Shown here piece by piece: positions 14,639 to 25,265 of a stretch of 64,000 bases of DNA. The notes below the pieces were generated by a model that saw nothing but the letters and a program-made list of their open reading frames with translations, made no database searches and was not told where the DNA came from. Source of the stretch: Bacteroidaceae bacterium. Its GTDB lineage: Bacteria > Bacteroidota > Bacteroidia > Bacteroidales > Bacteroidaceae. The DNA is taken from contig JAFYYH010000007.1 of NCBI GenBank assembly GCA_017557635.1, forward strand, positions 56,686 to 120,685, written 5' to 3'. The first letter of the stretch is position 1, and each line of letters opens with the position of its first letter. The position numbers and the translations under genes were made by a program.

Positions 14639-14693
14639 CGGAAATATTGTAGTTGAGCAATAAAAATTTTCTGCAAAACATAAGTATTTGAAA

Positions 14694-15176
14694 ATGGAAA
14701 ATGGCTATAAACTGGATGAGACCGATGTCCGTATCCTGCGTGAACTGCAAAAAAACGCCCAACTGACGGTCAAGGAACTGGCCGCCAGGATACATCTTTC
14801 GCCGTCACCTACATTCGAGCGTCAGAAACGTCTGGAAAGGGAAGGCTATATAACCCGTTATATGGCTGTGGTCGATGCACAGAAGGCCGGAAACGGGATA
14901 ATGGTCATGTGCAATATCCGTCTCAAGCAGCACTCCGAGGAGATGATTCAGCAGTTTATCGATGCCGTACAGAATATTGACGAGATAACGGAGTGCTTCA
15001 ACACCAGCGGTGATTATGATTTCATGATAAAGGTATATGCGCGTGACATGCACGCCTACCAGCAGTTCATGCAACACCGGTTAGGTGCGATAAGCTGTCT
15101 GGGAAGCCTGCACAGCGTCTTTGTAATGAGTGAGACCAAGAATACCCACGGGGTGCCGGTGATCGGCCCCGAGTGA
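14694..15176 (+). CDS. Lrp/AsnC family transcriptional regulator
   Basis: A 160-residue regulator with an N-terminal winged helix-turn-helix (LDETDVRILRELQKNAQLT then ELAARIHLSPSPTFERQ) and a C-terminal RAM ligand domain containing the GDYDFMIKVYARD strand. Such proteins sense amino acids as oligomers. It is divergent from metE across 146 bases, so metE control is a reasonable guess. I start it at the ATG at 14694; an in-frame TTG lies six bases upstream. Its stop is two bases from that of the convergent HD-domain gene. Confidence 0.9.
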   Translation: MENGYKLDETDVRILRELQKNAQLTVKELAARIHLSPSPTFERQKRLEREGYITRYMAVVDAQKAGNGIMVMCNIRLKQHSEEMIQQFIDAVQNIDEITECFNTSGDYDFMIKVYARDMHAYQQFMQHRLGAISCLGSLHSVFVMSETKNTHGVPVIGPE

Positions 15177-15178
15177 GT

Positions 15179-15745
15179 TTACTTTCCTGAAAAAACCTGA
15201 TTAATCAGTTGCTCGAACTCCTTGAAGGCGAATGTGTCTTTGAGGTCGCGCAGGGCATCGGCCAGACCGCGGTAGTGCCATTCGTGGTCTTTTGGGTCAT
15301 TGGCATGGAACAGGTTCCAGAGGGCGTCTCCCTGAACTGCGTAGTCACGTGCAATGGCTCTCATATTGGAGAGTTTGTCACCCAAAGCGACAATCTTGGC
15401 GTCAAGCGGAGCGGCTGCAATAAGGTCGATGGCCTTTTTCTTGCGCTCGTGCCAGGTACCTTCGTCATCACCCACGCTTTCAATCTGAACGAGTGATGCT
15501 ATGCGGTCACCGAACTCATGGCGGATATCGTCAATGGTGACATCGGTGTCCTCGACGGTGTCGTGCAGAGCGGCGGCAGCCAGCAGTTCCTGGTCAGAGG
15601 TGATGGTGGAGACAATCTCCATTGCCTCCATGGGATGAACAATGTAGGGGAAGCCCTTTCCGCGGCGCTCGGTGCCCGCGTGGGCCTGGACCGCGAATAT
15701 GATGGCGCGGTCCAGAAGTTCAGTATTAAGCGGTTTGTTAGCCAT
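15179..15745 (-). CDS. HD-domain (p)ppGpp hydrolase-like protein
   Basis: A 188-residue single-domain protein resembling the hydrolase half of RelA/SpoT: an early RRGKGFPYIVHPMEAM, the metal-binding HD motif ALHDTVEDTDVT, the conserved EFGDRIASLVQ, and LGDKLSNMRAI. These are the residues that bind Mn2+ and the 3'-pyrophosphate in ppGpp hydrolases. No synthetase, TGS or ACT domain is attached; the synthetase is the separate gene one base upstream. It is the last gene of the seven-gene operon. Hydrolysis of another nucleotide is possible. Confidence 0.8.
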   Translation of the reverse strand: MANKPLNTELLDRAIIFAVQAHAGTERRGKGFPYIVHPMEAMEIVSTITSDQELLAAAALHDTVEDTDVTIDDIRHEFGDRIASLVQIESVGDDEGTWHERKKKAIDLIAAAPLDAKIVALGDKLSNMRAIARDYAVQGDALWNLFHANDPKDHEWHYRGLADALRDLKDTFAFKEFEQLINQVFSGK

Positions 15746-15746
15746 T

Positions 15747-16811
15747 TTACTTGTTCATGAAGGGCAGGTCCTTGGATTGCTCCAGAAGCATCTCTGCAAT
15801 GACGTCATTGCTCTCGGATTCACCGTTCAGCTGGTCAAACATATACTTGATGCCGGCCTTTCCGCCACCTATCTTGAGAATATATGCTATGCACAGGTCC
15901 TGCGGGCCGATGGACGATGAGATAATGTCCAGATCCGTCAGTCCTATCTGATAGCATGCAATCTGATATGCACCCTCGGAATAATCCCTGATAAGGTTGG
16001 ATATGTCTCCCAAAGTCTTGAAGCCAAGAGCTTTGAAAACGGTGAGGTAGGGCATGAGCGGCACATCCTGTATCTCGGCCTGGTTCATGGCGGCAATACG
16101 CTTGTTGAGCTGTGCGAACGGCTCCAGTTCCAGATAACTGCGGAACGTATCACCGTCTATGGGCACCTCATCCAGGTTACCGGAGCGTACCAGAGCCTGG
16201 ACACGGCGGCGGTAATCGGTCAGTTCAATGCGGATCTTGCTGAACTCGTCATCAACAAGTTCGAGCATTCCGGCCAGACGGCTCATGTTGCGCATGTAGC
16301 GTCTGGGAATCTCCACGCCTGATTTGTAACCGGTGTCATGGTCCATATTGGCCCATGCATGCTGCAGCAGGGTACGCATCTGAATCTCAAAGCGGTACGG
16401 GAAATCCGGAACTTTGCAGATGTAATGCAGTGATAGATAGCCGAAACTGTCTATCTCATGGATCTTACGCTTGTCGACAGAATTCTCCCAGTCAATCTCA
16501 AAGAGTCTCTCCACGGCCGATGCCACCTTGTCGACATCATCTATGTAGAAAGTGATGACTCTGAGACCGAGAATGTCAGTAAGGTCTGCCAGGCTTTTGT
16601 ACTTATGGCCTTTAAGTTCAAGCTTTCCGGCCAGTGAATCATACGCCTTGACACGCGATTCGATGGCAGCCACAAGCAGTCCGGCATCGGCCAGAGTCTG
16701 CCTGAGCTTATCCTTAACCTCCTGCTCAACCTCTCTGAAGCGGGGCAGGTTGTCCTGGTACTCCTGAAGGATTGCCTCACAATGAGGATCCAGTTGCCTT
16801 GCCTTCTTCAT
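15747..16811 (-). CDS. RelA/SpoT-domain (p)ppGpp synthetase with C-terminal extension
   Basis: A 354-residue protein whose N-terminal 200 residues form a RelA/SpoT nucleotidyltransferase domain: SRVKAYDSLAGKL (52-64), the acidic DLTDILGLRVI (77-87), DSFGYLSLHYI (121-131) and FEIQMRTLLQHAWANMDHD (141-159). No HD hydrolase domain precedes it, so it should make but not destroy (p)ppGpp. The last ~150 residues are an extension of unknown role, not a TGS or ACT domain. I chose the ATG at 16811 because an earlier one overlaps the STAS gene. Confidence 0.85.
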   Translation of the reverse strand: MKKARQLDPHCEAILQEYQDNLPRFREVEQEVKDKLRQTLADAGLLVAAIESRVKAYDSLAGKLELKGHKYKSLADLTDILGLRVITFYIDDVDKVASAVERLFEIDWENSVDKRKIHEIDSFGYLSLHYICKVPDFPYRFEIQMRTLLQHAWANMDHDTGYKSGVEIPRRYMRNMSRLAGMLELVDDEFSKIRIELTDYRRRVQALVRSGNLDEVPIDGDTFRSYLELEPFAQLNKRIAAMNQAEIQDVPLMPYLTVFKALGFKTLGDISNLIRDYSEGAYQIACYQIGLTDLDIISSSIGPQDLCIAYILKIGGGKAGIKYMFDQLNGESESNDVIAEMLLEQSKDLPFMNK

Positions 16812-16821
16812 GGTTGTCTGT

Positions 16822-17127
16822 TTAGTCCTGTATTTCAAACAGATTCAGGAAACCGGTCATCATAAAGACTGAACGTATGTCCTTGTTTATGGACTTTACT
16901 ATCACTTTGCCGCCCTTTGATGCAGCAGCCTTGCGCAGTGAAAGGAACAGACGAAGTCCGGAACTTGATATGTACTCAAGCTCGGTGCAGTCAAGAATTA
17001 CTGTTCCTGCTGCATACTGGTTCAGATTCTCAAAATCGCCGCTTATCTCCTGTGAGGCGGGTGTGTCCAGACGACCGATAAGCTGAGCGGTCGTGATAGA
17101 GTCCTTGGTGTTGATCTTTACTTCCAT
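16822..17127 (-). CDS. STAS-domain anti-anti-sigma factor-like protein
   Basis: A 101-residue single STAS domain. The conserved phosphorylation region is present as YISSSGLRLFLSL, with a serine in the position that anti-sigma kinases modify in SpoIIAA and RsbV. A partner with both a SpoIIE phosphatase and an anti-sigma-type ATPase domain is encoded two genes upstream, so a partner-switching circuit is likely. The ATG at 17127 is preferred because the upstream one lies inside the antiporter gene. Confidence 0.88.
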   Translation of the reverse strand: MEVKINTKDSITTAQLIGRLDTPASQEISGDFENLNQYAAGTVILDCTELEYISSSGLRLFLSLRKAAASKGGKVIVKSINKDIRSVFMMTGFLNLFEIQD

Positions 17128-17146
17128 ATTGTTAATTGATTGATAA

Positions 17147-18640
17147 TTAGTCATCAGTATCTCCCATAATGATTACCAGACGGTCACCTTCCATGAGTTT
17201 CATGCTGCCGTGCGGTACCAGATACTTGGATTCGCGGCGTACCATCACAACGCGGATGCCGTGGGGCAGATGAAGGTCACGCAGGGTAGAGCCGCCTTCC
17301 AGATCGGCCTCAGTAACTATGTGGTCGCGCAGCATTCCCATCTCCTCGGGTATCTCCATGCCGAATGTCTCCACCTCGGGATCATCGTCAATGCTCAGGT
17401 TGAGCAGTCGGGCCATCGGGGATATGGTCATACCCTGTACAAGCAGTGAGAGGAGGGTTATGGTGAACACTATGTTGAATATCTCGTTTGAGCCGTCCAC
17501 GCCCTCAATGACCGTGTAGAGGGCAAAAAGTATGGGACCGGCACCCTTGAGTCCGACCCATGACGTCAGTAACTTGGCTCTGAATGAGAGTCCTCTGAAC
17601 GGCAGAAGGCTGAGCATGATACCTGCAGGGCGTGCCACCAGCAGAAGGAAGAGGCCGATGAGCAATGCGGGCAGCAGTACGGTGTGCATCTGTGACGGTC
17701 TGGCCAGCAGTCCCAACAGCAGGAACATCATAAGCTGTGACAGCCATGTGATTCCGTCAAAGAAGAGAAGAACCTCTTTCTTGAAGGGCAGGTCTTTTGT
17801 GTTGCCTATGACTATGGCACAGACATACAGGGCAAGCAGTCCGTTACCGCCTACAAATGATGCGGAGCCGTTTGCGAACAGGGCAATGCTCAGCACCAGG
17901 ATGGAGTAGAGCGGACTTGACTGGAGGTTGATTCTGGTAAGCAGCCAGCGTGCTCCCTGTCCCAGTGTCAGTCCTATGGCAAAGCCAATGGCAATCTGCT
18001 TGATCAGCACCCATACGCCGAACAGGACAATGTGTCCGGTTGCGCCGGATGAGCCGTGAGTCATCTCCAGGATGTTCACCAGAAGAATGGTAAGCACATA
18101 TGCCATGGGGTCATTACTTCCGGATTCCAACTCCAGCATGGGGCCCAGGTCCTCACGAAGGGTCAGACGGTTGCTCCTGAGTATGGAGAATACCGATGCC
18201 GAGTCTGTGGATGACATGACGGCGGCCAGCAGGAAACATCCCAGGAGGGATGAGCCGGCACCGCCTACCTTTGTACCCAAAGCGTAGTAGATGAAAAGAC
18301 CTGTGCAGACTATGGTTATGAATACGCCTAACGTGGATATGGAGATACCTTTCCTTATGATGGGCTTTGTCTCAGGGAGCGATGTCTCAAGACCGCCTGT
18401 AAGCAGAATGATTGTCATGGCCAGGTGACCCAGGAACTCGGCTACACGGGGCTCGTCTATGCGGATACCTATACCGTCCTCGCCGGCCAGCATTCCAAGG
18501 ATAAGGAACAGCAGCATGGTGGGCACTCCGAACTTTGTGCCGACCTTGGCCATGAGAATGGCAACGAACATAAGGAATGACACGAGCAGTATCAGGTTGC
18601 CCGATGAAATGTCAATGTTGAAAATGGATAATGGTATCAT
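17147..18640 (-). CDS. Cation/proton antiporter with TrkA-C domain (NhaP2-like)
   Basis: A 497-residue protein with about 12 hydrophobic helices in the first 400 residues and a C-terminal TrkA-C (RCK-C) regulatory domain starting near IVTEADLEGGSTLRDL. This is the layout of NhaP2/CvrA-type K+/H+ antiporters of the CPA1/CPA2 superfamily; the transported ion cannot be settled from sequence. The start overlaps the stop of the phosphatase gene by four bases (ATGA), indicating translational coupling. Confidence 0.88.
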   Translation of the reverse strand: MIPLSIFNIDISSGNLILLVSFLMFVAILMAKVGTKFGVPTMLLFLILGMLAGEDGIGIRIDEPRVAEFLGHLAMTIILLTGGLETSLPETKPIIRKGISISTLGVFITIVCTGLFIYYALGTKVGGAGSSLLGCFLLAAVMSSTDSASVFSILRSNRLTLREDLGPMLELESGSNDPMAYVLTILLVNILEMTHGSSGATGHIVLFGVWVLIKQIAIGFAIGLTLGQGARWLLTRINLQSSPLYSILVLSIALFANGSASFVGGNGLLALYVCAIVIGNTKDLPFKKEVLLFFDGITWLSQLMMFLLLGLLARPSQMHTVLLPALLIGLFLLLVARPAGIMLSLLPFRGLSFRAKLLTSWVGLKGAGPILFALYTVIEGVDGSNEIFNIVFTITLLSLLVQGMTISPMARLLNLSIDDDPEVETFGMEIPEEMGMLRDHIVTEADLEGGSTLRDLHLPHGIRVVMVRRESKYLVPHGSMKLMEGDRLVIIMGDTDD

Positions 18641-21000
18641 TTGCTCAGTTTCTTTATCAGAGTAAGTATGTTGTGTCCGTCCACACGCTCGTAGTTGATG
18701 TGGTCCATTATCTGGCGGATCAGATGTATTCCCAGACCACCGATCGAACGGTCTTCGGCACTCAGTGTTATGTCAACCTCGGCCTTGGCGGTAGGATCAA
18801 ACGGCTTGCCGGTGTCAGATATGATGAATGACATCTCTGACTTGTTGGCTTTTGTCTCAATGGTTATATCACCCTTGGTTCCCTCCGGGTAGGCATAGTT
18901 CATCACATTGACCACGGCCTCCTCGATGGCCAGGTTTATCTGCATGGTTGTGGCCATGTCAAATCCGTTGGCCTCACAGACCTCATCTATGAAAGAGTTG
19001 AGTCGTGGCACACGCTTCAGGTCATTGGTGAGGGTAAGACTGCGCTGATACGTGAGATCCTCCTGATGCTTGGTGTACTGGAGCGCCAGCATGGTCAGGT
19101 CATCGCTCTGATCGGCCTCTCCTACAAACTTACGGACTGATTCCATCATCTGCTTGACAATGACTGTGGGCTTGAACTCCTCCTTCTGCTGCAGACCACG
19201 TGCAACCTCAATCACACGTGTCATCTCAAACTGCTGATGATTTATGTTCTCGGCCTCGTTGAGTCCGTCGGTGTACAGGAATATGGTGGTGTCGGGATCC
19301 ATCAGGGTCTCCTGTCTGCTGAACTTCCAGCCAGGCATTACGCCAATGGGCAGATTTGAATCAACAGGAAGCATGCCGGCTCCGGTATGACCTATCAGAA
19401 CAGGTGCGTCATGCCCGGCGTTGCAGTAGTGCAGGCGTCCGGTCGGCAGGTCAAGCACACCGGCAAAGAATGTCACGAACATATTTGAATCATTGTCCTG
19501 TGATAGCACCTCGTTGAGGGCGTAGATAATCTTTTCGGGCGATGCCTCGTGGCTTGAAACCGTACGGAACAGCGCCTTGGTCACTACCATGTAGAGTGAA
19601 GCCGGAATACCCTTGCCCGATACGTCACCTATGCAGAAGAACAGCTTCTCGTCACGTATGTAGAAATCAAACAGGTCGCCGCCAACCTCCTTGGCCGGGG
19701 TCAGCTGGCCGAACACGTCAATGTCGGTACGCTCCGGGTATGGCGGGAATATCTTGGGCAGCATGGCCATCTGAATGTCACGGGCAATCTTAAGCTCACC
19801 CTCAATGCGACCTTTCTGCTCGTTGATCTGTTTGAGCTCATCCATCTGCTGAACCAGAGACTGCTGCATGTGTCGGAATGAGTTGGTGAGTTTGCCAATC
19901 TCATCGTTTCGGTCCGATTCCGTTATGTCTTCATCGAAACGTCCCGATGCAATGGTTTCGGCCTGCCAGGCAAGTTCCTCAAGCGGTTCCAGCTGCTTGG
20001 TGAATATGCTGCTGAATGACATGAGCATGAGCAGCAGACCTACAACCAGAATTCCTATCATTGTGTTGATGAGGCGGTAGTAGCCGCTAAAGATATCCTG
20101 TGTGGTACATACCAGACCTACGCTCCAGCCGGTATCGCCCAGAGGTTTGTAAAGCACATAACAGTTCTGACCGTTAAGTTCAAGTTCGCGGAAACCCTGC
20201 TCGCCGGCCTGCATGGCATGACCCAGTGCCGTGATGGCGGTGTCTGGTTCAAGCATGGTCTGGGTGAATATGGTCTGATAGAACAGTTTTGTGGTATCGG
20301 GGTGAACAAAGAAAGTACCTCCCTTACCTATCATGATAGTGTAGGAGTTGGGGTAGGGCTTTACGGCCGATATGGTCTGCGACAGCCATTCAAGTGAGAG
20401 GTCAACCGATATGGTGCCGATGAACTCACCATCCCTGTCGTTTATGGGCTTACAATAGGAGATTATCATGTCATTTGACGTGAAGCCTTCAGGATTGTAG
20501 TCCAGGAAAGGCTCCGTCCAGCAGGGGTGGCCAAGCAGTTTGGGCAACTGATACCAGTCCATAGAGAAATACTGATAATGTTCATTACCCTCCTGTGTGG
20601 TCTTGATTTCACCGTCATCATTAAGCGAATAGGCCGAGAAGTACAACCCTCTGTCCTTGAAGAAGAACGGTTCGAATGAAATGGAGCATCCGTTCAGGTT
20701 GGGGTTGTTCTGAAGAATGCGGCGGGAGTATACGAACATTGAATCCGGAGCATCCAGATGTCTTGTTATCAGCCAGTCGGTGTTATCGGTTGCAACCTTT
20801 ACCTGTTCCAAAATGTTGTCAACACGCAGTACCGTGTTGTCAAGCTGATGCATGGCGTTGTCAATGGCAGCCCGCTGCACTGCCACACGTGACTCGTTGA
20901 AGAATACTCCGATCGCAGCCAGGAATATAACTCCGGCAAAAAGTACGGCCCACAGACTGAGTCTGGTGGACAGTGATCTTTGTTTTTTCTCTTTCTTCAT
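18637..21000 (-). CDS. Sensor PP2C (SpoIIE) phosphatase fused to an anti-sigma-type ATPase domain
   Basis: A 787-residue membrane protein. A first membrane helix (about 10-30) is followed by a Cache-like periplasmic domain, a second helix near residue 310, a HAMP linker and coiled coil, a SpoIIE/RsbU PP2C domain (AKEVGGDLFDFY, IGDVSGKGIPA, CNAGHDAPVL, FLYTDGLNEAEN), and a C-terminal HATPase of the RsbW type (NLAIEEAVVNVMNYAYPEG). It thus carries both opposing activities toward a STAS protein. The start at 21000 is supported by GGAGG five bases upstream; a longer start overlaps the preceding gene. Confidence 0.9.
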   Translation of the reverse strand: MKKEKKQRSLSTRLSLWAVLFAGVIFLAAIGVFFNESRVAVQRAAIDNAMHQLDNTVLRVDNILEQVKVATDNTDWLITRHLDAPDSMFVYSRRILQNNPNLNGCSISFEPFFFKDRGLYFSAYSLNDDGEIKTTQEGNEHYQYFSMDWYQLPKLLGHPCWTEPFLDYNPEGFTSNDMIISYCKPINDRDGEFIGTISVDLSLEWLSQTISAVKPYPNSYTIMIGKGGTFFVHPDTTKLFYQTIFTQTMLEPDTAITALGHAMQAGEQGFRELELNGQNCYVLYKPLGDTGWSVGLVCTTQDIFSGYYRLINTMIGILVVGLLLMLMSFSSIFTKQLEPLEELAWQAETIASGRFDEDITESDRNDEIGKLTNSFRHMQQSLVQQMDELKQINEQKGRIEGELKIARDIQMAMLPKIFPPYPERTDIDVFGQLTPAKEVGGDLFDFYIRDEKLFFCIGDVSGKGIPASLYMVVTKALFRTVSSHEASPEKIIYALNEVLSQDNDSNMFVTFFAGVLDLPTGRLHYCNAGHDAPVLIGHTGAGMLPVDSNLPIGVMPGWKFSRQETLMDPDTTIFLYTDGLNEAENINHQQFEMTRVIEVARGLQQKEEFKPTVIVKQMMESVRKFVGEADQSDDLTMLALQYTKHQEDLTYQRSLTLTNDLKRVPRLNSFIDEVCEANGFDMATTMQINLAIEEAVVNVMNYAYPEGTKGDITIETKANKSEMSFIISDTGKPFDPTAKAEVDITLSAEDRSIGGLGIHLIRQIMDHINYERVDGHNILTLIKKLSK

Positions 21001-21004
21001 AGCG

Positions 21005-21009
21005 CCTCC
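21005..21009 (-). promoter_or_regulatory. Shine-Dalgarno sequence of the SpoIIE phosphatase gene
   Basis: GGAGG on the minus strand, four bases before the ATG ending at 21000. It decides the start in favour of MKKEKKQRS. Confidence 0.6.
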
Positions 21010-21013
21010 GGTA

Positions 21014-21955
21014 TTATTCAACTACGATATCCTGGTAAGTCACTTCATGGTCAAGCATGCCGTTCTCAATCATCAGGTCGCTGGCCTGTTTAACCATGTC
21101 GGGGCGCAGACGGAATTCATACTGTCCTGATTCGCGGTCTTTGAGAAGACTCAATGTCTCATCAAGCATGAGTTTCTGCAGTACCCTGTTGGTTGCTATA
21201 TGTTCTCTCTGAACGTAATCCATTACGATGTCAAGGGTTGCCTCGGGATTCTGTATGGCCCATTCCCAACCCTGACGGCTGGCCTCGGCAAACTTCTCGG
21301 CCTGATCCTTGTGCTGCTCGTAATACTCACGGGTCATGTAGACTCCGTCCTCCTGGATATTGTAACCGTGGTCACGGAACCTGTAGACATGTTCGTCTTC
21401 AAGCTGGATGCCGGTCTGCACCAGTTGATAGTATTCGTTGTAACTCATGGCAAGGGTGGCGTCAATGGCTCCCGATATGAACAGGTTGACGTTGTTTGCA
21501 AAGGGTATCCAGCGGTAATCAAGTTTATCCTTCAGACTCATGCAGATGGCCACCTGTCCGAATCCTGCATTCCAGATTCCAACTTTTGCGCCGTACTGCT
21601 TGAGCGGATCCATGCCTCGGCGTGAGACAATGACCATGGCGTTGTTCATGGATGTCTGGAGAATGTTGACAAGAGGAATTCCGTCGTTGATGATCTCCAT
21701 GGCCTGGGTCAGTTGCAGCGTGGTGGCCTGGCTCTCATTGCTGCGGATACGGCTGATCGCCGTCTGGGTGACCGAAGGATGGACAATCTCCACATCCAGA
21801 CCGGCCTTGTAATAAAAGCCCAGCTCCTGGGCTACATAATAGCCGGCAAACTGTGCCTGTGCAGTCCATTGGGGCGTGAATATCAGTTTTTCCTGAGCAC
21901 GCAGAGAGGTGCAGGTCAAACCGATGACTAGTCCCAACAACAAAATCCTCTTCAT
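21014..21955 (-). CDS. NMT1/THI5-like periplasmic binding protein without transporter partners
   Basis: A 313-residue protein with a cleavable signal peptide (to about residue 20, ...SLRAQ). The mature part begins FTPQWTAQAQFAGYYVAQELGFY, characteristic of NMT1/THI5 and SsuA-type solute-binding proteins for pyrimidine precursors, taurine or related ligands. No ABC permease or ATPase is nearby. Since it lies 14 bases from a membrane phosphatase with a periplasmic sensory domain, it may be a ligand sensor rather than a transport protein; that is inference. Confidence 0.85.
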   Translation of the reverse strand: MKRILLLGLVIGLTCTSLRAQEKLIFTPQWTAQAQFAGYYVAQELGFYYKAGLDVEIVHPSVTQTAISRIRSNESQATTLQLTQAMEIINDGIPLVNILQTSMNNAMVIVSRRGMDPLKQYGAKVGIWNAGFGQVAICMSLKDKLDYRWIPFANNVNLFISGAIDATLAMSYNEYYQLVQTGIQLEDEHVYRFRDHGYNIQEDGVYMTREYYEQHKDQAEKFAEASRQGWEWAIQNPEATLDIVMDYVQREHIATNRVLQKLMLDETLSLLKDRESGQYEFRLRPDMVKQASDLMIENGMLDHEVTYQDIVVE

Positions 21956-21963
21956 ATGAACCC

Positions 21964-22800
21964 TTAACTTAAAATCCTTTCAAGTCCCACCCTGAGTTCA
22001 GGCATGGGGCGTTTTGTATCCCTTTCTACGATGATTGTCTTAAGACCGGCAAAGGGAAGTATCATCTCATCTATCTCCTTGAGCGAAATTCCCGCTCCGA
22101 AATACTCACGTGCAAAGAACTGCCAGAACTTTCCGGCCAGGCTCTTGGGCATATGAAAGGTCTCCTCGATGAACTCCTGGCTGCTCAGGTTGCAGCACAG
22201 GTAGACCATACCCACATCAAACAGATGGTTGCCCCAGCAGAAGTCACCCAGGTCAATGAAATAGCGCTCCTGGCCTGCAAAGATGGCGTTGCTGTACTGC
22301 AGGTCTCCGTGTATTGCGGTGTCCTCATCGGGGACATCGGCAATGAACTTCTCCAACTTGGCCTTCTGGGCGTTGTCAAAGAAGGGGTTTTCACTCAGGA
22401 GCCTGAAGTATCGGTCCTTTACGTTCTCAAACTGCGTGGTATCCACGTGGGTGGCATGGAGTTTCAGACACATTCCGGCAAACTCAGTGGCAAATTGCTC
22501 TACCTTTTCAGGCTCGTCGCCGGTGGCTCGTGAGTATGACTTCTTGCCCGTTATGCGCTTGAAACGTATGCCGTATCGGCCATCCTGTGTTACCACATAA
22601 TCGCCGGGCTCAGGGGTGGGGATGCCCATCTCAAACACCTTACGTGCCAGCCTTATCTCATCCAGTGGCTGCTGAACGATGCCGGGACGGTACAATTTGA
22701 GCATAACCGTAGGATCAGACTTGTGGTTAAAGCTGTCTCCGTTGGCTCCGCCGCCAAAAAGTTCATAATCATCGAGTTTTATTTCAATGGCTCTCTCCAT
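21964..22800 (-). CDS. Aminoglycoside phosphotransferase/choline kinase-like protein
   Basis: A 278-residue protein with a kinase-like fold: Gly-rich LFGGGANGDSF near residue 15, LKLY with the probable ATP lysine, the catalytic loop IHGDLQYSNAIF and the metal-binding FIDLGDFCWG. It resembles the paralogous phosphotransferase family first defined in Fibrobacter and common in gut Bacteroidetes (substrate unknown). It is the first gene of the seven-gene operon, nine bases before the binding-protein gene. An antibiotic-resistance role is not supported by the context. Confidence 0.8.
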   Translation of the reverse strand: MERAIEIKLDDYELFGGGANGDSFNHKSDPTVMLKLYRPGIVQQPLDEIRLARKVFEMGIPTPEPGDYVVTQDGRYGIRFKRITGKKSYSRATGDEPEKVEQFATEFAGMCLKLHATHVDTTQFENVKDRYFRLLSENPFFDNAQKAKLEKFIADVPDEDTAIHGDLQYSNAIFAGQERYFIDLGDFCWGNHLFDVGMVYLCCNLSSQEFIEETFHMPKSLAGKFWQFFAREYFGAGISLKEIDEMILPFAGLKTIIVERDTKRPMPELRVGLERILS

Positions 22801-22865: not shown

Positions 22866-25265
22866 TCACTTGCCGATGTTGGCTATGATACGCAGGTTGA
22901 GCTGGCGTCCGGTCAGGTAATTGGGTACGGCGAACTGGGTGTTGCTGATATCGGTTATCCAATAGTATGAGTTCACGTTGTTTATGCCCAAAAGGTTCAG
23001 GCAGTCAACACCCATCCAGATGTTGTTGAAAAATCCTGACTTGCCGTAAATATGCGGATGCTTGTCGTAATCGAATATCTTATATGAGAGGCCGATGTCG
23101 ACACGCTTGTAGGCGGGAGCGCGGAACACCTGCTTCTCACGGCCGCTGTGGGTGGGGCCGAAAGGAAGTCCGTCGGCCAGCGAGCAGCGTAGCGACATCT
23201 TCCAGCTCTCCTTGCGCGGGAAGTAGTCAGTGAAGTATAATGAAAGATTGTAAAGCTGGTCAGTGGGACGCGGCAGCCATTTGCCGGCAATGTTCTCCCT
23301 GGTGCTCATGAGAGAGAATGTGAGCCAGGACGCGGTGCCCGGAACGAACTCACCGTAAAGTTTCATGTCAATGCCTGCTGCATAACCGTGAGCACAGTTC
23401 TCGCCGTAGTAAACTATCCTTACATTATCGACGTTGTAGGGAATCAGGTTGTACAGCTTCTTATAGTATATCTCGGTGGTGAACTTGAACGGACGTCCGT
23501 ACACCAGGAAATCATAGTCGCCACCCAGTACGAACTGAAGCGAGCGTTGTGACTTTATCTCTCTGTTCAGGTTGACCTGATATATGCCTCCGGTATTGAC
23601 AGTGTCCTTGATCTCCTTGTAGAACGGTGTCTGGTGATAGACTCCGGTCGAGAACCTGAATGTGAAGTTGTCATTGAAAGCGGGTGTGAATCCCAGCATC
23701 AGGCGCGGGCTGAAAATGATCTCGTTGTTCCAACTCCACCAGGACATGCGCATGCCAGTATTCAGGGTAAAGAGTCCGATTCCTGTATTGAAACGGTAGG
23801 TATCCTGAATGAATGCGGCGGCTTTGTCGTTGGATACCCCGTGGTCTGATTTGAGCGAATAGATCATCTCCATGGGACCGGTCTGTGTGTAGGGCAGGGT
23901 GTAACCGGCCGAGTCACGCATCTCCCATTCCCTCATGTGGTCCGATACCGTCTCGTGACGGTACTCCACACCCCAGCCGATGGTGCCTGTAACATTGGTT
24001 TCATGCGTTCCCTTGAGGGATGCCGTATAGACGGTTGATTTCAGGCGGTTGCGTGCGTGCTGCATGAATGAACCTACGGCCAGACTTCCGCCGCTGGTGG
24101 CCTCGTCCAGCCAGTACTGACTCAGAATGTCAAATGATTCGCTTTCATGACTGCCGAAAGCCGACAGGTTGAGGCGGTATATGGAGTTCTCCTCCTTGTG
24201 TTTTATGTCAAGCGCTCCGAACAGGGTGTTGAACAGGTCGCTTTCCCATCCTTCATAGTAAACCTTGAAGGTCTTGGGATCCTTCGCGGTGCCGAATGTG
24301 GTGGTGCGGTCTGTCGGTGTGAAGTTGTAGCGGTTCACGGCTGCATTGCCTATCAGGCCGATCTCCCACTTGGTATTGGGGGTCCAGCACAGGTATGTCT
24401 GGTAATCCAGGAAAGAGGGATCGTACTCGCCATTGGTATCGAGTGTACCCAGAAGGTAACGGGTGGTCTTGTATCGGACACTGCCTGAGAAACTGAACTT
24501 GTCATTTCCGGCTCCCACATATGCGCTGGCTCCCAGAAGGCTGGCCATCAGGACCGATTCAAATTTCTGCGGACGGCGGTAGTTTATATCCAGGACCGAT
24601 GACATCCTGTCGCCGTAAGCCACGCTGAAGCCGCCGGTTGAGAAACTGATGGATTCAACCATGTCGGGGTTGATGAAACTCAGACCCTCCTGCTGTCCGG
24701 CACGTACCAGCAGCGGACGCAGTATCTCGGTGCCGTTCACATAGACGCTGTTCTCATCAAAGTTGCCGCCGCGCACGTTGTACTGGCTGCTCAGTTCGTT
24801 GTGAGTGCTCACACCGGCCTGGGTGGCGATGATTGACTCCACTGAACCTCCGTTTGCATCGGCCATATAACGTAACCCTTCGGAACCTATCTGCTGCATG
24901 CCGTTTGTCTGACGGCGGGTGGCATTGATGTCCACGTTCTCAAGGGTGTAGTTTGAAGTGGGGAGCATCATGTCCAGCTGTACGGTATCGGGCGGGCTAA
25001 TGAGGGTGCGCTTGCGTGTCTCGTGACCGACCATGCGGAATACCAGGTTCAGCGTATCGGTACGGGTGTTGACGTTGAACGAATACTCGCCCTTGAGGTT
25101 GGTCATGGCCGAGTGCAGCGTAAGTTCCTCATTGACGGTGGCAAGTTCCACGGGCTGTCCGGTCTCGTCGGTCACACGGCCGTAGATATACACACGACGT
25201 GCCTGCACGGGCAGTGCCATGCAGACAGCCAGAATGATGAGGAATGTGTGCCGTATGCGTTCCAT
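22866..25265 (-). CDS. TonB-dependent outer-membrane receptor
   Basis: A 799-residue outer-membrane protein. A signal peptide (to about residue 22, VQARRVY) precedes a carboxypeptidase-regulatory-like domain (YGRVTDETGQPVELATV), a plug domain (NVRGGNFDENSVYVNGTEI) and a large beta-barrel. It has no SusD partner, so it is not a classical glycan PUL receptor; the substrate is unknown. It is separated from the downstream operon by 65 bases. Confidence 0.9.
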   Translation of the reverse strand: MERIRHTFLIILAVCMALPVQARRVYIYGRVTDETGQPVELATVNEELTLHSAMTNLKGEYSFNVNTRTDTLNLVFRMVGHETRKRTLISPPDTVQLDMMLPTSNYTLENVDINATRRQTNGMQQIGSEGLRYMADANGGSVESIIATQAGVSTHNELSSQYNVRGGNFDENSVYVNGTEILRPLLVRAGQQEGLSFINPDMVESISFSTGGFSVAYGDRMSSVLDINYRRPQKFESVLMASLLGASAYVGAGNDKFSFSGSVRYKTTRYLLGTLDTNGEYDPSFLDYQTYLCWTPNTKWEIGLIGNAAVNRYNFTPTDRTTTFGTAKDPKTFKVYYEGWESDLFNTLFGALDIKHKEENSIYRLNLSAFGSHESESFDILSQYWLDEATSGGSLAVGSFMQHARNRLKSTVYTASLKGTHETNVTGTIGWGVEYRHETVSDHMREWEMRDSAGYTLPYTQTGPMEMIYSLKSDHGVSNDKAAAFIQDTYRFNTGIGLFTLNTGMRMSWWSWNNEIIFSPRLMLGFTPAFNDNFTFRFSTGVYHQTPFYKEIKDTVNTGGIYQVNLNREIKSQRSLQFVLGGDYDFLVYGRPFKFTTEIYYKKLYNLIPYNVDNVRIVYYGENCAHGYAAGIDMKLYGEFVPGTASWLTFSLMSTRENIAGKWLPRPTDQLYNLSLYFTDYFPRKESWKMSLRCSLADGLPFGPTHSGREKQVFRAPAYKRVDIGLSYKIFDYDKHPHIYGKSGFFNNIWMGVDCLNLLGINNVNSYYWITDISNTQFAVPNYLTGRQLNLRIIANIGK

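Follow-up and report, generated by a model that had tools for sequence, protein, structure and literature searches.

Which output does a bacterial partner switch control when its genes share an operon with an alarmone synthetase and an alarmone hydrolase? This question arises from seven minus-strand genes in the window analyzed here, a stretch of 64,000 nucleotides from contig JAFYYH010000007.1 of a Bacteroidaceae bacterium whose genome (2.44 Mb, 24 contigs) is 89% complete. The genes encode a phosphotransferase, a periplasmic binding protein, a membrane sensor, an antiporter, a STAS protein, a small alarmone synthetase (SAS) and a small alarmone hydrolase. Their co-occurrence in ruminant-gut Bacteroidales is real and recurrent. 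The reading that we favor, a partner switch with an alarmone cycle among its outputs, is a well-grounded hypothesis to which we give an even chance of being correct.

Organization of the operon

Coordinates are positions in the window, and gap values were calculated from the best starts. Running from 22800 down to 15179, the genes are as follows.

21964..22800, minus strand: APH-fold phosphotransferase (P0007; Pfam and TIGR02172), with the HGD...N...D residues retained
21014..21955, minus strand: NMT1/THI5 periplasmic binding protein (P0006; Pfam), with a signal-peptide-like N-terminus
18637..21000, minus strand: dCache-HAMP-SpoIIE (PP2C)-HATPase_c_2 sensor (P0005; Pfam), a single protein carrying both a phosphatase and a kinase domain; best start at ATG 21000, the frame being open as far up as TTG 21021
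17147..18640, minus strand: K+/H+ antiporter with TrkA_C (P0004; Pfam and NF003716)
16822..17127, minus strand: STAS protein of the anti-anti-sigma type (P0003; Pfam); best start ATG 17127
15747..16811, minus strand: small alarmone synthetase with a RelA_SpoT domain (P0002; Pfam); best start ATG 16811, C-terminal extension of ~150 amino acids
15179..15745, minus strand: small alarmone hydrolase, HD_4 (P0001; Pfam), with intact active-site residues

All seven genes exceed curated Pfam cut-offs, and the Pfam and NCBIfam matches support the identities proposed in the initial annotation of this DNA. In particular, the SpoIIE domain scores 160 bits, the RelA_SpoT domain 69.9 bits (cut-off 27) and the antiporter 493 bits against NF003716 (cut-off 355), while the phosphotransferase, at 227.6 bits, lies just below the TIGR02172 cut-off of 228.2. 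The start methionine of the STAS protein at ATG 17127, which is M10 of the long frame, is conserved in 83 of 83 sequences. The intergenic gaps are 8, 13, −4, 19, 10 and 1 bases. The initial annotation had placed the operon and its genes correctly and had given five of these gaps exactly, the first being off by one base (9). Judging from spacing, the seven genes probably form one transcription unit. A search of the seven genes with Pfam and NCBIfam revealed no sigma factor, in agreement with the earlier claim, and the Pfam search revealed no GGDEF domain among them.

Conserved residues of the switch and its sensor

The RsbU/RsbV/RsbW and SpoIIE/SpoIIAA/SpoIIAB switches consist of a PP2C phosphatase, a GHKL kinase and a STAS protein with a conserved serine, and the window module shares these three parts. 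In its SpoIIE phosphatase domain, the aspartates that we take to be metal-binding are invariant (D449 and D466, 79/79; D641, 78/78; D585, 77/77). Similarly, E701, N705, D736, G738, G762 and G764 of the HATPase domain, presumably belonging to the N and G boxes of a GHKL kinase, are each conserved in 71 of 71 sequences. The phosphorylatable Ser64 of the STAS protein, which we take to be the equivalent of SpoIIAA Ser58, is present in 83 of 83. Unlike the classical switches, the window operon is devoid of a sigma factor, and its kinase and phosphatase are fused; in some relatives they are split. P0005 is the sole SpoIIE match of its genome and holds the one HATPase_c_2 match over the cut-off (one more lies below, at 20 bits), and of two STAS matches, only P0003 stands alone, the other being part of a 567-residue frame. 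Hence, no second switch of this kind was found in this 89%-complete genome.

The NMT1 gene lies directly upstream of the Cache-SpoIIE gene in 24 of 24 cases, 15 of them in 96 synthetase loci and 9 in 20 comparator loci chosen for holding SpoIIE; the count covers these 116 surveyed loci and not NMT1 genes elsewhere in the genomes. No BPD_transp_1 (PF00528) permease was matched in the genome holding the window, whereas 14 of 14 control genomes gave a match, other permease families not having been searched. Because of this pairing and the missing permease, the NMT1 protein is probably a co-sensor of the SpoIIE protein rather than part of an importer, and the simplest reading is that it informs the Cache domain about its ligand-bound state. 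The earlier label of an orphan binding protein can thus be refined to that of a probable co-sensor.

Conserved residues of the alarmone enzymes

The synthetase residues R62, K64, D88, Y134, H138, E151 and Q153, presumed to be catalytic, are invariant in 63 aligned rows. By profile, the nearest structures in the PDB are YjbM and YwaC (99–110 bits, YjbM at 110), which we take to be of the RelQ/RelP type, followed at a distance by the structure 7ztb, in our understanding CapRel (35 bits), and by FaRel2 (15.8 bits, or 16 when rounded); FaRel itself is not among the matches listed. Because the profile lies nearest to YjbM/YwaC, the product is more likely (p)ppGpp than a tRNA modification. The synthetase is nevertheless no member of the RelQ (YjbM) equivalog NF053588, scoring 56.1 bits against a cut-off of 320.

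The last ~150 residues of the synthetase have no Pfam match over the cut-off and no PDB sequence match. In this extension, 34 positions are conserved in at least 53 of 55 family rows, and 33 of the 34 are common to at most three of eight lone relatives, whose alignment in this region is uncertain. Three RelA_SpoT proteins are encoded in the genome holding the window, namely frames of 825 and 752 amino acids and P0002. In the available part of Atkinson et al. 2011 (PMC3153485), the set named as typical of Bacteroidia consists of two long proteins, Rel and RshB, and no others, so that the family of P0002 appears to be little described.

In the hydrolase, H37, H61, D62, E65, D66, D123 and N127 are each conserved in 82 of 82 sequences, and its PDB matches include 7qoc and MESH1. 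We assume that these residues form the HD metal site or serve in catalysis. Likewise, H164, D166, N171 and D183 of the APH kinase, which we presume to be functional residues, are conserved in 80 of 80.

Linkage of the module genes in relatives

To examine gene neighborhoods, we collected relatives of the synthetase. A scan of contigs yielded no fewer than 570, of which only the 80 nearest were retained, and near relatives are therefore overrepresented in the sample. The pooled loci L042–L157 number 116, of which 114 hold a strong synthetase (the weak L047 and L048 were dropped) and 96 are distinct. The main count uses the 54 distinct loci whose two flanks each reach 8 kb or more, 42 having been set aside for short flanks; the gene models derive from the loci under study. 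Within this distance of the synthetase, HD is found in 49, APH in 46, PP2C in 49, HATPase in 52 and STAS in 52 of the 54 loci. The antiporter (32) and NMT1 (12) are optional, and a Y_phosphatase3-like gene occurs in 3. The distance counted is 8 kb throughout. With short flanks included, the 96 loci give HD 81, APH 80, PP2C 78, HATPase 84, STAS 82, antiporter 46, NMT1 15 and Y_phosphatase3-like 7.

The full core of HD, APH, PP2C, HATPase and STAS surrounds the synthetase in 43 of the 54 loci, the other 11 being L046, L049, L051, L052, L055, L056, L059, L118, L134, L145 and L149. The conserved co-occurrence of the SpoIIE-HATPase, STAS, RelA-domain and HD genes that had been predicted is therefore borne out, and these genes are by no means rare neighbors in relatives. 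The seven-gene set is borne out in part: the phosphotransferase belongs to the core more than the antiporter or the NMT1 protein does. A single-copy gene would fall within 8 kb of another in about 0.7% of cases in a 2.4 Mb genome, compared with 49–52 of 54 for SpoIIE and STAS; although the loci are related to each other, this clustering is not due to chance.

The genes are arranged in several orders. The run SAS-HD-APH-SpoIIE-STAS is the commonest (21 loci, and 14 more with a trailing antiporter). The order of the window, APH-NMT1-SpoIIE-antiporter-STAS-SAS-HD, occurs in 2 loci, and the runs NMT1-SpoIIE-antiporter-STAS-SAS-HD-APH and SAS-SpoIIE-antiporter-STAS-HD-APH occur in 3 each; further orders exist. 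On a tree of the 96 synthetases, a position of STAS upstream requires 5 changes, at least 3 of them forced by well-supported branches. The overall figure of 20 order changes is overstated, as 22 rows labeled as having no order or as cut include contig ends. Because the linkage outlasts reordering between lineages, it argues for a functional tie among the genes.

The synthetase is present in 30 of 36 other genomes of the same genus (31 positives of 61 searched, with the window's own genome counted). Order-wide, with a threshold of E ≤ 1e-10, 7 of 246 other genomes have a match, which is full-length with 55–69% identity in 5 and weak and partial with 32% identity in 2. The nearest named contigs are mostly ruminant-gut metagenome-assembled genomes labeled Bacteroidales, Bacteroidaceae, Prevotellaceae or Bacteroidia. 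A SpoIIE match was obtained in 35 of 39 genomes tested, with G264 at only 25 bits. The presence of SpoIIE was also tried as a phylogenetic profile and proved uninformative, since 185 of 247 genomes of the order have it.

Within one genus, two synthetase lineages lie far apart on the tree, L049–L056 being 57–61% and L057–L077 being 82–95% identical to the window. This pattern suggests that the module has been transferred horizontally.

Pairing of synthetase and hydrolase

Co-occurrence was determined in 46 genomes chosen from earlier searches, 35 with and 11 without the synthetase. At E ≤ 1e-30, the hydrolase is present in 34 of the 35 and in none of the 11 (Fisher p 9e-10, uncorrected for kinship); within the genus alone, the values are 29/30 and 0/6. 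The only synthetase genome without it is G262, which is 81% complete. In G270, G274, G276, G278 and G280, the hydrolase gene is located on another contig than the synthetase gene, and the earlier idea that the hydrolase is dispensable was withdrawn on this ground. Beside the synthetase, HD is absent in the named contigs L118, L133, L134, L142 and L151, the rest of those genomes not having been searched.

A pairing this close is also expected if the synthetase is toxic and the hydrolase is its antitoxin, in a stress or defense unit of the toxic SAS (toxSAS) type that the switch triggers. The available part of PMC11782079 describes FaRel as flanked by a hydrolase antitoxin. Moreover, the phage family phrog_9640 matches synthetase residues 21–340, two prophage genes match residues 17–292, and the PADLOC candidate PDC-S33 matches partially (56 bits over residues 36–163). 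The antitoxin role of the hydrolase is putative, and no type II antitoxin was seen among the seven genes. Several features speak against a toxin: among the PDB matches listed, which do not include FaRel itself, the nearest structures belong to the RelQ/RelP type and not to FaRel2 or CapRel, a YxxY motif after residue 210 occurs in only 5 of 63 rows, most genomes of the genus carry the synthetase, and a hydrolase gene on a separate contig is unusual for an antitoxin. We consider the toxSAS explanation improbable.

At a greater distance, synthetases were found in 8 of 394 other genomes of the phylum (E ≤ 1e-25), and no other module gene model matched in these eight loci (fetched stretches of 8–20 kb). 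The loci L219–L226 from other Bacteroidota hold lone synthetases of 328–357 amino acids with no HD or STAS model match nearby. Phage or prophage genes match the greater part of this length as well; these are candidates for defense or toxin roles.

Co-variation of the STAS protein and the proposed circuit

To find candidate partners of the STAS protein, we correlated the divergence of gene pairs across loci; no phylogenetic correction enters these values. Across 65 loci, the divergence of STAS correlates with that of the synthetase at 0.64, followed by APH (0.48), PP2C (0.38), HD (0.35) and HATPase (0.34). In the 45 loci with STAS downstream of the synthetase, where HD, APH and SpoIIE usually lie between the two, the value is 0.42 for the synthetase versus 0.20–0.31 for the others. 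Among 38 loci with all genes, the synthetase, HD and APH intercorrelate at 0.43–0.58 and PP2C, HATPase and the antiporter at 0.56–0.73, although the two groups are not clean (HD-PP2C, 0.45). STAS correlates with both groups (0.43–0.55) and thus looks like a bridge between the sensor block and the alarmone block. When partners are cut to 100 random columns in these 38 loci, STAS-synthetase gives 0.52, STAS-antiporter 0.51 and the rest 0.42–0.47; where present, the antiporter is an equally good candidate.

Based on these observations, we propose the following circuit. A ligand would be sensed by the Cache domain and, where present, by the periplasmic NMT1 protein. The signal would set the balance between the HATPase kinase and the SpoIIE phosphatase within one membrane protein, and this balance would determine whether Ser64 of the small STAS protein is phosphorylated. 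In one of the two states, STAS would bind the synthetase and change the activity of this enzyme, the likeliest docking site being the C-terminal extension specific to the module, while the HD hydrolase would remove the product. The antiporter may serve as an optional second output, and the APH kinase may be accessory. We infer the binding of the synthetase by STAS, the sign of the control and hence the control of alarmone turnover, which is the step that would make the circuit new. A more far-reaching form is put forward tentatively and is rather doubtful. In it, this would be the first partner switch with a complete alarmone cycle as its output: STAS would dock on a C-terminal domain of the synthetase that is specific to the module, the signal would be reset by the hydrolase, and a third enzyme, the APH kinase, would modify either the enzymes or the nucleotide. 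A periplasmic ligand could then set (p)ppGpp without the ribosome or amino-acid starvation.

Separability of the two blocks and the place of the kinase

Several observations weigh against an action of STAS on the synthetase. The co-variation values, uncorrected for phylogeny, are only suggestive of the partner of STAS. When the synthetase is cut to its first 200 residues, its correlation with STAS decreases to 0.58 (65 loci) and 0.33 (45 loci), and part of its lead over shorter partners is therefore due to length. In the 38 loci, the correlation of STAS with the antiporter (0.54) equals that with the synthetase (0.55) for practical purposes. The C-terminal extension is also conserved in L046, one of the 55 family rows, whose synthetase has no linkage to STAS. 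A scan of 117 sequences (116 loci and the window) turned up no fusion of STAS with the synthetase, and the STAS fusions that were found join an APH relative. Furthermore, G247 and G273, of the same genus and 97% and 96% complete, and G281 (82%) hold a SpoIIE/STAS cassette without the synthetase; in G247 and G273 (L189 and L188), the cassette reads NMT1-SpoIIE-HATPase, with STAS nearby on the opposite strand. Conversely, G253 (97% complete) has the synthetase and the hydrolase but no Cache-SpoIIE protein, its only SpoIIE protein being one of 387 amino acids in another context.

The switch and the synthetase parts are thus separable. G101 carries both at separate loci (L046 and L192), and no synthetase of the P0002 family was found in G229 (L202) or G281 (L191). 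An obligate seven-gene unit was rejected, because loci may lack NMT1 or the antiporter and the two blocks can occur apart. The single circuit of the initial annotation is accordingly weakened as an obligate one, while the linkage of its core stands.

These findings raise the alternative that two independent cassettes often travel together: a SpoIIE/STAS switch that acts on the antiporter, in loci that have one, or on some protein encoded elsewhere, and an alarmone cassette of synthetase, hydrolase and kinase. The two would share transcription but make no protein contact. Besides the cassettes without synthetase in G247, G273, G281 and other families, this alternative would account for L046 and L059, where no cassette lies near the synthetase and hydrolase, for the opposite-strand gene that separates the blocks in L071–L075 and L077, and for the antiporter, whose correlation is 0.56 with PP2C and HATPase but low (0.26) with the synthetase. 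It is less easily reconciled with the 49 of 54 loci in which PP2C, HATPase and STAS all lie no more than 8 kb from the synthetase, in several orders, or with the correlation of STAS with members of both blocks. We regard two independent cassettes as rather unlikely.

The fusions bear on another alternative, in which STAS acts first on the APH kinase, which then phosphorylates the alarmone enzymes or the nucleotide, with a tyrosine-phosphatase-like protein reversing this in some lineages. STAS is fused to a TIGR02172-like APH kinase in 2 of the 20 SpoIIE comparator loci (L191:2972-4180 in G281; L202:11745-12995 in G229), and the L191 fusion adjoins Y_phosphatase3, NMT1, SpoIIE, HATPase and STAS genes. 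Additionally, the HD hydrolase and APH form one protein of ~470 amino acids in two genomes of one genus (L044:7537-8946 in G185; L045:10701-12128 in G081). Y_phosphatase3-like genes lie beside module genes in L043, L049, L050, L054, L055, L191 and L230; those at L043:12220-13029, L049:10309-11094, L191:4177-5064 and L230:8315-9127 stand next to STAS, synthetase or hydrolase genes, and the first three are confirmed as Y_phosphatase3 by Pfam. At E ≤ 1e-10, APH relatives occur in 34 of the 35 synthetase-bearing genomes and in 1 of the other 11, the one being the fusion in G281, but this count includes paralogues down to 24–45% identity, with up to five matches per genome. Moreover, 8 of the 54 loci have no APH gene in the 8 kb around the synthetase, G101 has none at this threshold, and STAS correlates less with APH (0.48) than with the synthetase (0.64). 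Control through APH is, in our judgment, quite unlikely.

TIGR02172-type kinases reach up to five matches per genome in synthetase carriers of the genus. They are missing from 5 of 6 genomes of the genus that do not have the synthetase, and the sixth, G281, has a match only as the STAS fusion.

Comparison with known systems

To our knowledge, partner switches act on sigma factors; the two cases compared here act on diguanylate cyclases. The anti-anti-sigma protein of the first, HsbR-HsbA-HsbD of Pseudomonas aeruginosa, is presumably of the STAS type. As described in the available part of PMC5085249, one protein of this system acts as kinase or phosphatase on the anti-anti-sigma protein, whose phosphorylation state decides its binding to a second-messenger synthase, here a diguanylate cyclase; HsbR is a response regulator. 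The module of the window differs in having a membrane sensor with a Cache domain, which a periplasmic binding protein often accompanies, and an alarmone synthetase and a hydrolase as its enzymes. In SiaABCD of P. aeruginosa (PMC7278518), the phospho-regulated SiaC binds the diguanylate cyclase SiaD, as the accessible part of PMC8457831 also describes. SiaABCD likewise combines a membrane PP2C phosphatase, a kinase, a phospho-regulated partner and a second-messenger synthase in one operon, but its output is a diguanylate cyclase and its kinase SiaB is separate, acting on Thr68 of SiaC. The SpoIIE protein of the window scores 66.2 bits against a cut-off of 700 for the SiaA equivalog and, as stated, the operon holds no GGDEF domain. 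In layout, the module is analogous to both systems, with an alarmone synthetase and hydrolase in place of the cyclase.

As for the alarmone enzymes, the synthetase shares its core with RelQ/RelP (YjbM/YwaC), its best matches among solved structures, and differs in its additional C-terminal region and its linked hydrolase. With FaRel and its small alarmone hydrolase (SAH) antitoxin, as far as the available part of PMC11782079 describes them, it shares this pairing, although it is closer to RelQ/RelP than to FaRel2 or CapRel, FaRel itself not being part of the comparison; it also differs from FaRel in lying within a partner-switch operon. Our searches, which covered open-licence PMC papers only, yielded no description of a partner switch combined with an alarmone synthetase and hydrolase, nor any paper on TIGR02172. 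The initial annotation likewise knew of no described system with this combination.

If a conserved switch acts on a synthetase-hydrolase pair, ligands outside the cell would have a new way of setting the alarmone level. The bacteria concerned are well represented among ruminant-gut metagenome-assembled genomes, and the conserved C-terminal extension, STAS Ser64 and the HD-APH and STAS-APH fusions provide experimental handles.

Other SpoIIE-STAS pairs and flanking genes

In L190 (G273) and L207 (G278), other SpoIIE-STAS pairs stand beside very long frames (2918 and 3028 amino acids, respectively), and these pairs possibly have a different output. Around the window operon, promoter-like and terminator-like matches are no more common than in shuffled sequences, the promoter model used being that of sigma-70 and not a Bacteroidetes one. 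The gene upstream of the operon (22866-25265) is also on the minus strand, at a distance of 65 bases. At the 3′ end, a plus-strand gene (14688-15176) converges on the operon, with 2 bases between them.

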